From Starkeya sp. ORNL1 (GTDB taxonomy: Bacteria; Pseudomonadota; Alphaproteobacteria; Rhizobiales; Xanthobacteraceae), in NCBI RefSeq assembly GCF_012971745.1, contig NZ_CP048834.1, positions 2,976,001 through 3,040,000 of the forward strand: a DNA stretch of 64,000 nucleotides, written 5' to 3'. Below are positions 36,199 to 58,659 of this stretch, one piece after another. Made by a program: the position numbers and the translations under genes. The notes under the pieces are model-generated. The model ran no database searches. It was not told where the DNA came from and saw only the letters and a list, made by a program, of their open reading frames with translations. Each line of letters begins with the position of its first letter. Position 1 is the stretch's first letter.

Positions 36199-37224
36199 AT
36201 GAGCACCGTTCTTGTCACCGGCGGCTCCGGCTTTCTCGGCAGTCACGTCATTGTGCAACTGCTCACAGCCGGCCACACGGTGCGCACCACGCTGCGCAAC
36301 CTCGCTCGTGCGGATGAGGTGCGGGCCATGCTGGCCGAAGGCGGTGCGACCGCGCCGGGCAATGTGGAGTTCGTTGCCACCGATCTGGAGAACGACACGG
36401 GTTGGCCGGGCGCCGTCGCTGGATGCGATTACGTGATCCATGTGGCCTCGCCCTTCCCGGCCGGCGAACCGGTCCATGAAGACGAACTGATCGTGCCGGC
36501 GCGCGAGGGCGCGCTGCGGGTGCTGCGCGCCGCGCGCGATGCCGGCGTCCGCCGCGTGGTGATGACCTCGTCCTTCGCCGCGGTCGGCTATGGCCACGCT
36601 CCGCGCGCGACGCCGTTCAACGAGACCACCTGGACCAATACGCAGGCCCCTAATCTCAGCGCCTATGTTAAGTCGAAGGCGCTGGCGGAGCGGGCGGCCT
36701 GGGATTTCATGGCGCGCGAGGGCGGCGGCCTGGAGCTTTCCGTCGTCAATCCGGTCGGCATATTCGGGCCGGTGCTGGGCCCGGACCTCGCGGCTTCGAC
36801 GCTGATCGTCAAGACCCTAATGGACGGCGGCATTCCGCTTTGCCCGCCGGTCCATTTCGGTGCGGTCGACGTGCGCGACGCCGCCGACCTCCATATCCGG
36901 GCGATGCTGCACCCGGAGGCGAAGGGCGAACGCTTCCTGGCCATTGCCGGCGACTGCCTGTCGCTGCTCGATGTCGCAAAGGCGTTGCGGCAGGGCATGG
37001 GTGCGCGCGCCGCCAAGGTGCCGACCCGCGAGGCACCGGACTGGCTGGTGCGCATCGTGGCGCTGTGGAACGCGAATGCGCGCCGGGTGCTTCCGGACCT
37101 CGGCAAGGTGCGCAATTCCACCAGCGCCAAGGCGCAGCGCGTGCTCGGCTGGACGCCGCGGCCGCGCGAGGAAGCCATTGTCGCGACAGCGGAAAGCCTG
37201 GTTCGGCTGGGGCTGCTGAAATAG
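36199..37224 (+). CDS. NAD(P)-dependent epimerase / dihydroflavonol-4-reductase-like aldehyde reductase
   Basis: A 341-residue extended-SDR protein. Nucleotide site 'VTGGSGFLGSHV' (residues 6-17), 'VIHVASPFP', 'RVVMTSSFAAVGYG' and the active-site 'YVKSKALAERAAW' (Tyr-x3-Lys). The subfamily reduces aldehydes or ketones such as methylglyoxal or dihydroflavonols. The actual substrate is unknown. GAGGAT precedes ATG 36199. It is a single gene, divergent from the efflux genes and followed by the tau region. Confidence 0.88.
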   Translation: MSTVLVTGGSGFLGSHVIVQLLTAGHTVRTTLRNLARADEVRAMLAEGGATAPGNVEFVATDLENDTGWPGAVAGCDYVIHVASPFPAGEPVHEDELIVPAREGALRVLRAARDAGVRRVVMTSSFAAVGYGHAPRATPFNETTWTNTQAPNLSAYVKSKALAERAAWDFMAREGGGLELSVVNPVGIFGPVLGPDLAASTLIVKTLMDGGIPLCPPVHFGAVDVRDAADLHIRAMLHPEAKGERFLAIAGDCLSLLDVAKALRQGMGARAAKVPTREAPDWLVRIVALWNANARRVLPDLGKVRNSTSAKAQRVLGWTPRPREEAIVATAESLVRLGLLK

Positions 37225-37244
37225 TCGACCCAATGGTCAACTTA

Positions 37245-37269
37245 ATTTCCTATCTTTTTTATAGGAAAT
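37245..37269. promoter_or_regulatory. 9-bp inverted repeat upstream of the tau operon
   Basis: ATTTCCTAT (37245-37253), 7 bases including a T-run, ATAGGAAAT (37261-37269), a perfect palindrome. A TTGACG -35-like hexamer starts at 37273. Because the T's are in the loop, it is not a classical terminator for the preceding gene. An operator for a sulfur-starvation activator is the better reading (inference). Confidence 0.55.
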
Positions 37270-37373
37270 AGATTGACGCCACCCGTCGACTTTGCTCACA
37301 TGGCGTTGCCACGCTGGACACGGCCCGCGCGCAGCGCTGCGGGCTCGGCGTCCGTTCGATAAGGGGTGCATCC

Positions 37374-37400
37374 ATGACCTGGATCTGTCGACGCTGCTGA
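37374..37400 (+). CDS. Cys-rich leader peptide MTWICRRC
   Basis: An eight-codon ORF (Met-Thr-Trp-Ile-Cys-Arg-Arg-Cys-stop) with an excellent Shine-Dalgarno sequence (AAGGGG, 37361-37365) 8 bases before the ATG. Two of eight codons are Cys and the last sense codon is Cys. A GC-rich hairpin with a T-run starts two bases after the stop. It precedes taurine (sulfonate) uptake genes. This is the layout of a transcription attenuator or ribosome-stalling switch that senses cysteine supply. Function is inferred, but the parts are directly visible. Confidence 0.7.
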   Translation: MTWICRRC

Positions 37401-37401
37401 C

Positions 37402-37422
37402 ACCGCCGGCACGGCCGGTTTT
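37402..37422 (+). terminator. attenuator-like hairpin after the leader peptide
   Basis: ACCG-CCG (37402-37408) pairs with CGG-C-CGGT (37412-37419), with one bulge and a 3-base loop, and runs into TTTT (37419-37422). It starts two bases after the leader stop, so a ribosome at the stop would cover it. A ribosome stalled at the first Cys codon would leave more RNA free for alternative folding. Confidence 0.6.
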
Positions 37423-37490
37423 CACTTGATATCGCACTCGGCCCGAACGTCGGCGACCTCAGCCGCGCGGCCTTTTCCATGGAAATTTCA

Positions 37491-38504
37491 ATGTCCCGGT
37501 TTTCCCGCCGCGCCACGCTCGCGGCCACGGCAGCTCTCGCCCTCGGCGTCGCTCTTCCCACGCTTCCGGCGCACGCTGCCGACTTCACCGTCGCCTACCA
37601 GACCGGCGCCGACCCGGCGAAGGTGGCGCAGGCAAACGGCGCCTATGAGAAGGCAACCAAGTCGAACATCGCCTGGCGCAAATTCGATTCCGGCGCCGAC
37701 GTGATCGCCGCCATCGCCTCGGGCGACGTGCAGATCGGCTATGTCGGCTCGAGCCCGCTCGCCGCCGGCGCCAGCCGCGAACTGCCGATCGAGACCATCT
37801 ATGTCGCCGCCCTGCTCGGTGATGCCGAAGCCCTGGTGGTGCGCAACGGCGCCGGCATCGAGAAGCCGGAGAACTTCACCGGCAAGAAGGTCGCGGTGCC
37901 GTTCGTCTCGACCACGCATTACAGCCTGCTCGCCGCGCTGAAGCATTGGGGCGTCGATCCGAAAAGCGTGCAGATCCTGAACCTGCGCCCGCCCGAGATC
38001 GCCGCCGCCTTCACCCGCGGCGACATCGATGCCGCCTATGTGTGGGATCCGGCGCTCGGCAAGATCAAGGAGACCGGCAAGGTGTTCGCAACCTCCGCCG
38101 ACGTCGCCAAATGGGGTGCGCCGACCTTCGATGCCTGGATCGTGCGCAAGGACTTCGCGCAGAAGGACCCCGAGATCGTCGCCCAGTTCGTGAAGGTGAC
38201 GGCGGATTCCTATGCCGACTATGCGAAGAACGGCGCCTCCTGGACGGCGAGTTCGCCGCAGGTCGCCGCCATCGCCAAGCTCACCGGTGCCAAGCCGGAA
38301 GAGATCCCCGATCTGCTCAAGGGCAACAAATATCCCCTGCTCGACGAACAGCTCTCCGAAGCACTGCTCGGCGGCGGCACGCTGGACGCCATCGTCCAGA
38401 CCTCCGGCTTCCTCAAGGAGCAGGGCCGCATCGACACGGTGCTGAAGGATTATAAGACCTATGTCGGCCGCGCCTATGCCGAGCAGGCCTCCAAGCTGAA
38501 CTGA
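37491..38504 (+). CDS. tauA: taurine ABC transporter substrate-binding protein
   Basis: A 337-residue periplasmic protein. A signal peptide ends at PAHAAD (about residue 26). 'FTVAYQTGADPAKVAQANGAYEKATKSNIAWRKFDSGADVIAAIASGDVQIGYVGSSPLAA' and 'VAVPFVSTTHYSLLAALKHWGVDP' closely follow E. coli TauA. It binds taurine for use as a sulfur source. Start 37491 (MSRFSRRATL) is preferred over 37479. It is first in tauABC, behind the leader-peptide attenuator. Confidence 0.93.
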   Translation: MSRFSRRATLAATAALALGVALPTLPAHAADFTVAYQTGADPAKVAQANGAYEKATKSNIAWRKFDSGADVIAAIASGDVQIGYVGSSPLAAGASRELPIETIYVAALLGDAEALVVRNGAGIEKPENFTGKKVAVPFVSTTHYSLLAALKHWGVDPKSVQILNLRPPEIAAAFTRGDIDAAYVWDPALGKIKETGKVFATSADVAKWGAPTFDAWIVRKDFAQKDPEIVAQFVKVTADSYADYAKNGASWTASSPQVAAIAKLTGAKPEEIPDLLKGNKYPLLDEQLSEALLGGGTLDAIVQTSGFLKEQGRIDTVLKDYKTYVGRAYAEQASKLN

Positions 38505-38615: not shown

Positions 38616-39401
38616 ATGACCGATCCGAAACTCAGCATCGAGCGTCTCGCCATCCGCTTTGCTGCGCCGGATGGCGGCACCGCCACCATTCTCGAGGGCA
38701 TCAACCTCGCGGTTCCCGCCGGCGAACTGGTGGTGCTGCTCGGCGCCTCCGGCTGCGGCAAGTCGAGCCTCATGAACGCCGTCGCCGGCTTCAATGCGGA
38801 GTTCGAGGGCACCATCCGCGTCGACGGCCGCGCGGTACGCGCGCCCGGCGCCGATCGCGGCGTCGTGCTGCAGACCGACGCGCTCTATCCCTGGCTCAAT
38901 GCGCGCGACAATGTCGGCTTCGGCCTCAAGCTGCGCGGTCTCGACAAGCGGGCGCGCGACGCCCGCGCCGAGGAAGCGCTGGATCTGGTCGGCCTCGGCA
39001 AGCATGGCGACCACGCGACGTGGCAGCTCTCCGGCGGCATGCGCCAGCGCGTCAGCCTCGCCCGTGCCCTCGTCGCCGATCCGCAGATCCTGCTGATGGA
39101 CGAGCCGCTCGGCGCGCTCGACGCGCTGACCCGCGAGCAGATGCAGGACCTCTTGCTCGATGTTTGGCGGCGCACCGCCAAGACCATACTGTTCGTCACC
39201 CACGGCCTCGACGAGGCGCTCTATCTCGGCACCCGCATCGTGGTGCTGGCCGGCAGGCCGGGCCACGTGGTGCATGACGAGCCCTGCGAGTTCGGACGCC
39301 TGGCGCTGGAGCAGGGGTTGGGTCCCCGCATCAAGTCGGTTCCGGAATTCGCCGCCGCGCGCGACCGGCTGCGCACCGCCATATTCAGCGGGGCCGAATG
39401 A
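38616..39401 (+). CDS. tauB: taurine ABC transporter ATPase
   Basis: A 261-residue protein. Walker A 'GASGCGKSS', 'VVLQTDALYPWLNARDNV' (TauB/SsuB-type Q-loop), signature 'LSGGMRQRVSLARAL', Walker B 'ILLMDEPLGALD', H-loop 'VTHGLDEA'. It is the ATPase of the taurine importer. The stop overlaps the tauC start region (ATGATG). Confidence 0.93.
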   Translation: MTDPKLSIERLAIRFAAPDGGTATILEGINLAVPAGELVVLLGASGCGKSSLMNAVAGFNAEFEGTIRVDGRAVRAPGADRGVVLQTDALYPWLNARDNVGFGLKLRGLDKRARDARAEEALDLVGLGKHGDHATWQLSGGMRQRVSLARALVADPQILLMDEPLGALDALTREQMQDLLLDVWRRTAKTILFVTHGLDEALYLGTRIVVLAGRPGHVVHDEPCEFGRLALEQGLGPRIKSVPEFAAARDRLRTAIFSGAE

Positions 39402-40285
39402 TGTCCACGCCCCTGCCCATTCCGGTCACCGAGATCGCGCTGCCGCTGGTGGTGCCGATGGAAGGGCTGCCGCGCGGCGTCTACGAGGCGGTGCCGGCAC
39501 GGCGGGCGACGCGGCCCGCGATTCCGTCGCGCCTCCTGATCTCGGCGGCGACCATCGCCAGCTTGCTGGCGCTGTGGTGGGCGGCGAGCGCCTCGGGCGC
39601 GGTGCCGGCGCTGTTCCTGCCCTCGCCGGCGACGGTGCTGGCGCGGCTCGGGCGCATCGCCACCGACGGCTTCATGGATGCGACGCTGGCCCAGCATCTC
39701 GGCGCCAGCCTGTTTCGGGTGTTCACCGCGCTCGCCGTCTCGCTGGTCGTCGGCGTGCCGGCCGGGCTTGCCATCGGGCTCAGCACGGTCGGGCGCGGCA
39801 TACTCGACCCCATTGTCGAGTTCCTGCGGCCGATCCCGCCGCTCGCCTATCTGCCGCTCGTCATCATCTGGGCCGGTATCGGCGAAGCGGCGAAGGTGCT
39901 GGTGATCGCGCTCGCCATGCTGCCGCCGATCATCATCGCCACCGCCGCCGGCACTCGCGGCGTCGCCAAGGATCGGCTGAACGTGGCGCGGGCGCTCGGC
40001 GCGACGCGCGCGCAGCTGGTGCGGCTGGTGGTCATCCCCTCCACCCTGCCCTCGATCCTCACGGGCACGCGGATCGCGCTCGGCGCCGGCTGGTCGACGC
40101 TGGTGGCGGCGGAACTGGTGGCGGCGACGCGCGGCGTCGGCTTCATGATCCAGTCCGCGGCCAATTTCCTCGCCACCGACGTGGTGATCGCCGGCATCCT
40201 GGTCATCGCCGCGGTGGCCTTCGCGCTGGAACTGAGCATCCGGCTGCTGGAGCGCGCGCTGGTCGGATGGGCGGCGCACGCCTGA
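39398..40285 (+). CDS. tauC: taurine ABC transporter permease
   Basis: A 295-residue inner-membrane protein with six helices after a hydrophilic N-terminus of about 40 residues. The EAA loop 'LNVARALGATRAQLVRLVVIPSTLPSILTGTRIALGAGWSTLVAAELVA' is typical of TauC/SsuC. No taurine dioxygenase gene follows, so desulfonation must be encoded elsewhere. Confidence 0.93.
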   Translation: MMSTPLPIPVTEIALPLVVPMEGLPRGVYEAVPARRATRPAIPSRLLISAATIASLLALWWAASASGAVPALFLPSPATVLARLGRIATDGFMDATLAQHLGASLFRVFTALAVSLVVGVPAGLAIGLSTVGRGILDPIVEFLRPIPPLAYLPLVIIWAGIGEAAKVLVIALAMLPPIIIATAAGTRGVAKDRLNVARALGATRAQLVRLVVIPSTLPSILTGTRIALGAGWSTLVAAELVAATRGVGFMIQSAANFLATDVVIAGILVIAAVAFALELSIRLLERALVGWAAHA

Positions 40286-57897: not shown

Positions 57898-58659
57898 ATG
57901 GATTTCGGCTACTTCCTCAACTTCCTGCTCAACCCTCCCGCCATCGTGTGGGAGGGGCTGCTGGTGACCATTTACATCTCGGTGCTGGCGCAGGCCTTGG
58001 GCGTGGTGCTGGGGCTTGGTGTCGCGCTGGCGCGGCTCTCCACCAGTAGCTGGCTGCGTGGCTTCGCGATCTTCTATGTCTGGTTCTGGCGCGGCACGCC
58101 GCTGCTGGTGCAATTGATGCTGGCCTATACCGGCGTAGCTGCTGCCGGCATCTACCGCTACCCCGATCTGGTGCTGGGGCCCTTCGTCTTCACTGGTCCA
58201 CTGCAGGCGGCATTGCTCACGCTGGCGCTCAACGAGGCCGCCTATATGAGCGAAATCTTCCGCTCCGCCATCTCCACCATCGACAATGGCCAGACCGATG
58301 CGGCGCGGGCGCTGGGCATGACGCCCGCCGTCTCGTTCCGCTGGGTGATCTTTCCGCAGGCGCTGCGCATCGTCATCCCGCCGCTCGGGAATGAGTTCAC
58401 CCTGATGATCAAGGGCACCTCGCTGCTCAGCATCATCGGCGTGCGCGAATTCTTCGGGACGCTGCAGAACATCAATTCGGCGACGTTCCGCACTTTCGAA
58501 CTCTTCCTCTATGCCGCCATCTGGTACCTGATCCTGACGACCATCCTCGGCTTTGCGCAGAAATGGCTGGAGCGCCGCATGGCGCGGCACGAGGCCCCGG
58601 CCGCGCGTCGCCTGTCCGCTGCGCTCTCCAAGCGCTCCCTGCTGGCGGGCCAGCGATGA
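57898..58659 (+). CDS. polar amino-acid ABC transporter permease
   Basis: A 253-residue permease of the His/Glu/Gln/Arg/opine family. 'GLLVTIYISVLAQALGVVLGLGVALARLS', 'YVWFWRGTPLLVQLMLAYTG' and the EAA loop 'GQTDAARALGMTPAVSFRWVIFPQALRIVIPPLGNEFTLMIKGTSLLSIIG'. A single permease gene suggests a homodimer. The stop overlaps the ATPase start (ATGA). Confidence 0.93.
   Translation: MDFGYFLNFLLNPPAIVWEGLLVTIYISVLAQALGVVLGLGVALARLSTSSWLRGFAIFYVWFWRGTPLLVQLMLAYTGVAAAGIYRYPDLVLGPFVFTGPLQAALLTLALNEAAYMSEIFRSAISTIDNGQTDAARALGMTPAVSFRWVIFPQALRIVIPPLGNEFTLMIKGTSLLSIIGVREFFGTLQNINSATFRTFELFLYAAIWYLILTTILGFAQKWLERRMARHEAPAARRLSAALSKRSLLAGQR

Follow-up and report, generated by a model that had tools for sequence, protein, structure and literature searches.

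A conserved cysteine-codon leader ORF upstream of tauABC in Starkeya sp. ORNL1 and related leaders of sulfur-uptake genes in Alphaproteobacteria

Leader ORFs with Cys codons are known or have been proposed in Actinobacteria (PMC1262725). The polycysteine leaders of mycobacteria are short ORFs with Cys codons near the stop, located before cysteine genes; in the available part of that study no conserved terminator hairpin accompanies them, and Rho was suggested to act (Seliverstov et al. 2005, PMC1262725). They are called leaderless in the title of Canestrari et al. 2020 (cited in PMC13236596). In Rhodobacterales, the alphaproteobacterial uORFC-8-2 precedes cysS and is proposed to sense Cys-tRNA; its Cys codons stand in tandem near positions 14-15, its intrinsic terminator has a U run, and the available text describes it for cysS only (PMC8632094). 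Another Cys-bearing leader peptide with translation-linked control is the copper-responsive uORF CruR, a DUF2946 protein with CXXC and RAPP motifs found at copper-regulated genes (PMC9426467). The SAM-II riboswitch (RF00521) is known at metA and metZ (PMC1273637, PMC9373788), and a methionine-regulon survey with the Rfam profile SAM_alpha reports metY, metA, metX and the like (PMC4239095). The activator TauR and taurine control tauA in Sinorhizobium meliloti (PMC4254191).

We analyzed a window of 64,000 nucleotides from the genome of Starkeya sp. ORNL1 (contig NZ_CP048834.1, positions 2,976,001 to 3,040,000), in which a short ORF with Cys codons is located upstream of taurine uptake genes (Table 1). 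Whereas the mycobacterial leaders are leaderless and end in a Cys run, this ORF is preceded by a Shine-Dalgarno sequence (SD), its RNA is predicted to start about 66 nt upstream, and the tauA leaders of Ancylobacter have one conserved Cys; Cys runs of the mycobacterial kind occur in a Labrys leader (MTNCCCC; all peptides are given without their stop) and in Ancylobacter metN-type leaders. The phylum and the genes (tauABC, metN-type and others) are different as well, and no sequence kinship with the mycobacterial leaders is apparent. Unlike uORFC-8-2, the ORF has eight codons, precedes tauA and is not followed by a conserved terminator; unlike CruR, it encodes a peptide of eight residues before a taurine transporter. 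Many related Cys ORFs follow an element with a SAM-II-like core, which is absent from the window's tauA leader; in contrast to SAM-II itself, this element scores below the Rfam cut-off (21.6 versus 36 bits for L182), and its last pseudoknot strand is preceded by an additional hairpin. The top results of a literature search, mostly of open-licence papers, included neither a Cys leader at tauA nor a SAM-II variant with a Cys ORF, and the same holds for the available parts of PMC10117765, PMC11109978 and PMC6429828.

Table 1. Features of the tauA leader and the genes behind it (positions in the window)
Feature	Position	Strand	Basis or remark
Predicted promoter: TTGACG 37273-37278, 17 nt, TCACAT 37296-37301	37273..37301	+	comparison of 17 orthologues
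5' stem-loop of leader RNA, arms about 37311-37316 and 37346-37351	37311..37351	+	helix 1 of consensus of 16 leaders
Shine-Dalgarno AAGGGG of leader ORF	37361-37366	+	read in sequence
Leader ORF MTWICRRC (ATG ACC TGG ATC TGT CGA CGC TGC TGA)	37374-37400	+	read in sequence
Conserved Cys codon TGT of leader ORF	37386-37388	+	fixed in 17/17 orthologues
Arg codons CGA CGC of leader ORF	37389-37394	+	fixed in 17/17 orthologues
Second Cys codon of leader ORF	37395-37397	+	window's species alone among 17
GC hairpin then T run, claimed terminator	37405..37422	+	not conserved, 1/35 leaders
Conserved hairpin directly 5' of tauA ribosome site	37440..37472	+	helices 2 and 3 of consensus
tauA, taurine ABC transporter substrate-binding protein	37479..38504	+	TIGR01729, 467 bits, cut-off 304
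tauB-like ATP-binding protein	38616..39401	+	best hit NF008421, 282 bits, below cut-off 357
tauC-like permease	39398..40285	+	best hit NF007545, 318 bits, below cut-off 342

The leader ORF upstream of tauA

The original prediction had claimed an AAGGGG SD and an eight-codon ORF ahead of taurine uptake genes, and all of these are present: TauA scores above its NCBIfam cut-off, and TauB and TauC match tau models best, at scores below cut-off. The more likely start of tauA is ATG 37491, which is preceded by GGAAA. TauA-like matches were obtained in 27 of 30 genomes of the genus Ancylobacter, and close tauA orthologues (at least 80% identity) in 17 Ancylobacter genomes, the window's included. An ORF of the form MTW(I/T/N)CRR(C/R/H/G/D) was found upstream of tauA in 17 of these 17, in L017 with one codon more and the frame kept (MTWTCRRRG); loss of the ORF from DNA that otherwise aligns, the observation that would speak against the prediction, was seen in none. 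By a strict rule, a G-rich SD precedes it in 16 of the 17, the exception being L010. When each 300-nt upstream region is shuffled, 0-3% of the shuffles contain an ORF that is led by an SD, starts with ATG, has 4-12 codons and carries Cys within the last four; since it is present in 17 of 17 orthologues, the leader ORF is more than chance. The window's hairpin described below may be a chance occurrence.

A Cys as last sense codon, regarded in the original prediction as a defining feature, is found in 1 of the 17 ORFs (the others end in Arg in 9, Gly in 4, His in 2 and Asp in 1), and the motif CRRC is not conserved among them; the conserved Cys is codon 5. The predicted Arg pair next to it did prove to be kept in every orthologue, ATGACYTGGANCTGTCGACGC is otherwise invariant, and TGT CGA CGC is identical in all 17 leaders including the third positions. 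In nine genes of the window, none of the 14 Cys codons is TGT, and 4 of the 221 Arg codons are CGA; CGA is often a slow codon. As TGT CGA CGC is fixed despite its rare codons, Cys codon 5 and its rare-codon surroundings are kept, the terminal Cys is not, and the constraint on the leader nucleotides goes by this comparison beyond the peptide. By comparison, tauA of the 17 species keeps a single codon at 20 of 133 amino-acid-invariant four-fold sites. A search for the ORF pattern in the rest of the window's genome gave one further site with three mismatches, which has no ATG. With two mismatches, the pattern was found in 7 of 396 other genomes of the order, and five of those seven, on inspection (L033-L036, L038), fall within long ORFs.

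At E ≤ 1e-90, 22 of the 397 Hyphomicrobiales genomes have a TauA orthologue, and for the genus g81 one was obtained from 10 of its 14 genomes. The SD-led ORFs before these tauA genes are short and unlike each other, with Cys at or close to the end: they encode MTNCCCC, MTNRCRC and MNLHCC in Labrys, and MTTRLC, MTPRLC, MTNRLC, MTERLC, MTRLRC and MTRLLC in g81; further ones occur in the genera g74 (MNLRSC), g123 (MTRKCCRR) and g93 (MTLSSCRR). A strict rule, set after examples had been seen although what it tests had been predicted originally (SD, ATG, 4-12 codons, Cys in the last four), holds in 31 of 34 leaders of six positive genera and in 0 of 23 others, one of which belongs to a divergent Labrys TauA. 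The failures are L113 and L116, where Cys is further from the stop, and L193, with 29 codons and a weak SD. One Labrys species carries a 102-nt insertion inside the leader ORF, which is in frame and free of stops; SD, start and the terminal CCRC are kept.

The expectation that Cys-ended ORFs recur at sulfur genes of Hyphomicrobiales was thus borne out at tauA of Labrys, g81, g123, g74 and g93, and at a sulfate-binding (L269) and an SsuA-family gene (L285). It failed at most other loci: outside Ancylobacter, an SD-led Cys ORF of at most 25 codons precedes 6 of 68 tauA loci (one in Labrys, two at Inquilinus-like loci and three in Mesorhizobium, the last with dissimilar peptides), most Mesorhizobium tauA loci among these 68 having none. 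The sulfate-binding genes of Ancylobacter show no consistent Cys ORF, with four sporadic cases in 30 loci (30 of 59 copies), and 20 regions around other sulfonate-type genes gave just two sporadic Cys ORFs besides the tauA ORF.

The invariant third positions of TGT CGA CGC would also fit a binding site for a protein or a small RNA, with an incidental reading frame. The string TGTYGACG recurs in several families, even where YGA is a stop codon, and TGTCGAC is present in 10 of 15 Ancylobacter metN-type leaders displayed, as it is in 17 of 17 tauA leaders. Against a TGTYGACGC binding site, SD and start are fitted to the string, insertions keep the frame, and many leaders have Cys codons without the string (MTNCCCC, MIVVSGMDIEKPDGKMCCGCCCC). 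We regard this explanation as improbable.

The SAM-II-like RNA and the cysteine ORFs behind it

A SAM-II-like RNA is located directly 5' of the Cys ORF in g81, g123, g93, Inquilinus-like and other leaders. Its core comprises GATTTGA, GCTTGC, GCTAAAGC, P1 and a pseudoknot-like pairing. No Rfam riboswitch match was obtained in two sets of 20 sources; ten sources of one set hold the element, and the other set gave one tRNA alone. At E ≤ 1, SAM_alpha was matched in one of five element-bearing sources (L182). The best score below the threshold, 30.4 bits, belongs to a second locus of g81; other g81 tauA copies reach 12.6-21.6 bits, which is within the noise of the Rfam search. An aptamer model built from 18 sequences has 54 positions. 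It matches 101 of 397 genomes of the order at E ≤ 0.01 and 52 of 279 genomes of the class at E ≤ 0.001. Upstream of tauA the model found no match in the window, in L001-L017 or in the Labrys leaders, and an Rfam search of window positions 37200-37550 gave no SAM family. A weak match to the model on the reverse strand of the window (58003-58036, 18.5 bits, E 0.023) is probably due to chance.

Pairing between loop 1 and the 3' strand gave a mean helix score of 9.75 versus 7.69 (sd 0.39) with swapped partners, and 0 of 1000 swaps scored as high; of 135 leaders, 79 could be parsed, and the test used the 65 distinct ones among them; its result is inflated by the relatedness of the leaders. By this comparison, loop 1 and the strand after the inserted hairpin pair covaryingly, as predicted for a pseudoknot. 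We read the RNA as a SAM-II variant with a hairpin inserted before the last pseudoknot strand, which would presumably bind SAM.

Behind the aptamer, we searched for an SD-led ORF of at most 45 codons that starts 55-200 nt after the aptamer start and has Cys in its last ten codons. Such an ORF was found in 76 of 96 leaders of the order, and in 82 of 96 if Cys was allowed anywhere in the ORF. The 96 leaders are those of 98 matches with E ≤ 1.9e-5 that remained after G307:C301 and G291:C27 had been left out, as were 22 weaker matches; 13 of the 96 sites come from the training set of the model, and 64 of the 83 outside it pass. Control rates were 6.3% for shuffled leaders and 41 of 756 for opposite-strand windows; among the 14 canonical SAM-II leaders, which precede metZ-like genes, one has a Cys ORF. 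Aptamer-linked Cys ORFs occur at least once in 22 of 26 genera, and in 49 of the 76 leaders the ORF starts 90-99 nt from the aptamer start. Cys makes up 11.1% of the 1601 residues encoded (116 TGT versus 62 TGC codons), and the last codon is the last Cys in 23 of 76. Outside the order, a Cys ORF follows the aptamer in 13 of 30 leaders, L351 being counted as a pass and L344 as a fail; hence, the aptamer stands more often without a Cys ORF there.

In Ancylobacter, RNA and Cys ORF occur together in metN-type leaders, at 16 of 16 strong matches and 17 of 19 if three weak ones are included; L318 and L332 in this set are two copies of one genome, and L330 duplicates L256. The ORFs encode, for example, MTMCCRRPKRA, MTKMCCPCCV and MSASCCCRPRP, and the gene is unlinked to tauA. 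The window's genome has its copy at G000:C1:5015215-5015270 (L256, L330), where the SAM-II-like RNA and the Cys ORF MTQSCCTRPRRP are followed by a small ORF, a MetN-like ATPase (MetN best hit, 388 bits, cut-off 500) and a further ORF. An ABC ATPase was found in 9 of 10 genes tested after Ancylobacter metN-type leaders. The window ORF is suggested to be a member of a family of Cys-sensing leaders rather than a local oddity, the best reason being that TGTCGAC is common to the metN-type and tauA ORFs of Ancylobacter.

The genes behind the 96 leaders were tallied from 80 proteins. These are not annotated genes; for each, a rough gene search supplied the first ORF or the one with the best score. 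The remaining leaders comprise 10 with TauA by search and six outside the tally (L247, L259 and four for which no ORF was picked). ABC-transporter parts account for 28 of the 80: 15 ATPases, two MetQ/NlpA proteins, ten other binding proteins and one permease. Fourteen of the 15 ATPases carry a NIL domain or match MetN best in NCBIfam (the three NCBIfam cases all below its cut-off), and the ten binding proteins include the sulfate-binding (L269) and SsuA-family (L285) proteins, both over cut-off, and one of basic amino-acid type. With the 10 TauA, 38 leaders precede ABC-transporter genes, and 33 of the 38 have a Cys ORF. Three leaders precede methionine enzymes, namely two Cys/Met PLP enzymes and a homocysteine S-methyltransferase; a Cys ORF is absent from all three leaders, and the two recognised metY leaders both lack it. 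Four proteins may be linked to sulfur (a class V aminotransferase, two flavin monooxygenases, a gamma-glutamyltranspeptidase), 11 of the 80 belong to families unconnected with sulfur, including Na/H exchangers, class III aminotransferases, a chaperonin and a ferritin-like protein (L274), and 34 of the 80 picked ORFs gave no family match.

Leaders with the SAM-II-like RNA but no Cys ORF precede Cys/Met PLP enzyme genes at L227 and L249 within the order and, by eye, at L338, L359 and L361 in other orders; hence, at biosynthetic genes the aptamer may work by itself. In g81 (L217-L222), the RNA and a 25-codon Cys ORF (e.g. ...MCRCRRNSH) precede a small protein, MFDNYIIEIDD..., with no recognised sulfur gene adjoining. 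A protein of about 75-85 residues (...YVIEI..AAGIVVR...) was seen by eye after the Cys leader and before metN-like or other genes in L237, L238, L240 and L251.

Short Cys-Arg-rich peptides might instead sense metal or the redox state as nascent chains, as proposed by analogy with the copper-responsive CruR leader of Bordetella, which uses a CXXC motif and Rho (PMC9426467). We consider this quite unlikely: the recognised downstream genes are mostly sulfur- or methionine-type ABC transporters, with one ferritin-like ORF and no metal-export gene, and six-codon peptides ending in one Cys have no CXXC.

Promoter and RNA structure of the tauA leader

After TTGAC, which was itself the search query, a 17-nt spacing and then TCAGAT or TCACAT were found in 13 of the 17 orthologues and a related hexamer in four; a sigma-70 scan lists no promoter at this place. 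The RNA is predicted to start near 37308 in the window, and 56-93 nt before the ORF across orthologues. Immediately 5' of the tauA -35 in Ancylobacter, a palindrome-like sequence, AATCTACT-n-AGTAGATT (37240-37275), was seen by eye, as were similar sequences in Labrys and Azospirillum (L060, L170, L173); it may be the site of an activator.

An alignment of 16 Ancylobacter leaders, with L009 left out as divergent, gave a consensus with two elements, a stem-loop at the 5' end and a hairpin immediately upstream of the tauA ribosome site. In helix 1, 87% of cells are paired and two of eight pairs show changes on both sides; the corresponding values for helices 2 and 3 are 87.5% and 92.4%, with four of nine pairs changed on both sides. 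Taken together, both elements have 13 cells changed on both sides, where shuffles have 4.2 (sd 1.6); 88.8% of their cells are paired, versus at most 56.6% when slid. These scores are favoured, as the consensus was derived from the same alignment. The window's own 5' stem-loop is among the weaker copies and is missing from its lowest-energy fold.

The original prediction took the GC hairpin behind the ORF, followed by TTTT, for the terminator of a classical transcription attenuator. A stem of six pairs, GCCGGC-ACG-GCCGGT (37405-37419), does exist and leads into TTT, and it is the sole terminator-like site in 1 kb scanned, where shuffles give 0.8 (sd 0.9). The window's leader is, however, the only one of 35 with such a hairpin 3' of the ORF, which rules out an intrinsic terminator as a conserved element. 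The mutually exclusive hairpins expected between 37340 and 37490 did not emerge either: the fold of these 151 nt is no better than shuffles (z 0.05), and the Ancylobacter alignment has no covarying positions in support of the 5' arm pairing alternatively with the ORF. Among aptamer-bearing leaders, 7 of 76 have a terminator-like hairpin versus 2.9 expected from shuffles, and a minority of these leaders may use an intrinsic terminator. A classical attenuator in the window is very unlikely. C-over-G tracts did not discriminate a Rho site, the mean best 40-nt excess being 0.25 after the ORF, 0.18 upstream and 0.22 (sd 0.09) in leaders of sulfate-binding genes.

An ordinary leader ORF that raises tauA translation by reinitiation without sensing, as leader genes have been proposed to boost downstream translation (PMC4833913), is hardly probable, given that ORF and tauA are separated by 79-152 nt within Ancylobacter and by 63-173 nt across 35 leaders, and given the Cys content of the aptamer-linked ORFs.

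Proposed mechanism and its meaning

Comparison shows a leader whose ORF, SD, Cys codon, position and gene association are conserved, and whose design is like that of other sulfur-uptake leaders. We assume, with good probability and on the strength of such sequence comparison, that the ORF is translated and that its near-terminal Cys codon senses Cys-tRNA, so that a shortage of cysteine (sulfur) would allow tauABC mRNA to be made or translated. Transcription would begin at the predicted start, and the SD-led ATG would be the entry point for a ribosome. This ribosome would finish the ORF at once and depart if Cys-tRNA is sufficient; if Cys-tRNA is scarce, it would stall at TGT codon 5, which CGA follows, and remain just 5' of the pre-tauA region, and the default block of tauA would not be applied. 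Two forms of this default block are favoured about equally: transcription that ends early, probably through Rho, or a tauA ribosome site that is poorly accessible behind the conserved hairpin. The stalled ribosome would relieve the one or the other.

Of the features of ribosome-mediated amino-acid attenuators, the leader shares the short SD-led ORF upstream of the operon (ORF in 17/17, SD in 16/17, translation predicted) and conserved codons for the operon-linked amino acid (Cys TGT in 17/17, with Cys codons also in unlike leaders). Terminator and antiterminator hairpins do not belong to it (1/35; no covariation). The idea of a Cys-codon attenuator is strongly supported by comparison. Of what was put forward originally, the conserved ORF, its SD, its Cys codon and the likeness to leaders elsewhere stand, whereas the intrinsic terminator, CRRC and the Cys in last position had to be given up. 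Several points count against a codon sensor: TGT CGA CGC is fixed down to its third positions, more than a pure codon sensor would call for; Ancylobacter tauA leaders have a single conserved Cys codon; there is no conserved terminator, distinctive C-over-G tract or covarying alternative pairing; the Cys ORF is missing at most Mesorhizobium tauA and Ancylobacter sulfate-binding genes; and tauA of S. meliloti answers to TauR and taurine (PMC4254191).

On balance, we favour the view that these leaders belong to a large, overlooked family for sulfur acquisition in Alphaproteobacteria, with two sensors on one RNA. A SAM-II variant would respond to the SAM level and, about 90-100 nt further on, a Cys ORF to the Cys-tRNA level, before metN/metQ-type, tauA and other binding-protein genes; methionine-enzyme genes would have the aptamer alone. 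The window's tauA leader would have lost or never had the aptamer and kept the Cys ORF, and the Ancylobacter metN-type gene would have both. If this is true, the tauA leader is an example of a two-input leader that retains one input where the other is missing, and the leaders offer a testable circuit for genes whose control in Alphaproteobacteria is little described in the literature consulted. In many Alphaproteobacteria of soil and plants, the supply of charged Cys-tRNA would then gate how taurine, methionine and further sulfur compounds are taken up, in many leaders together with a SAM-riboswitch-like RNA.
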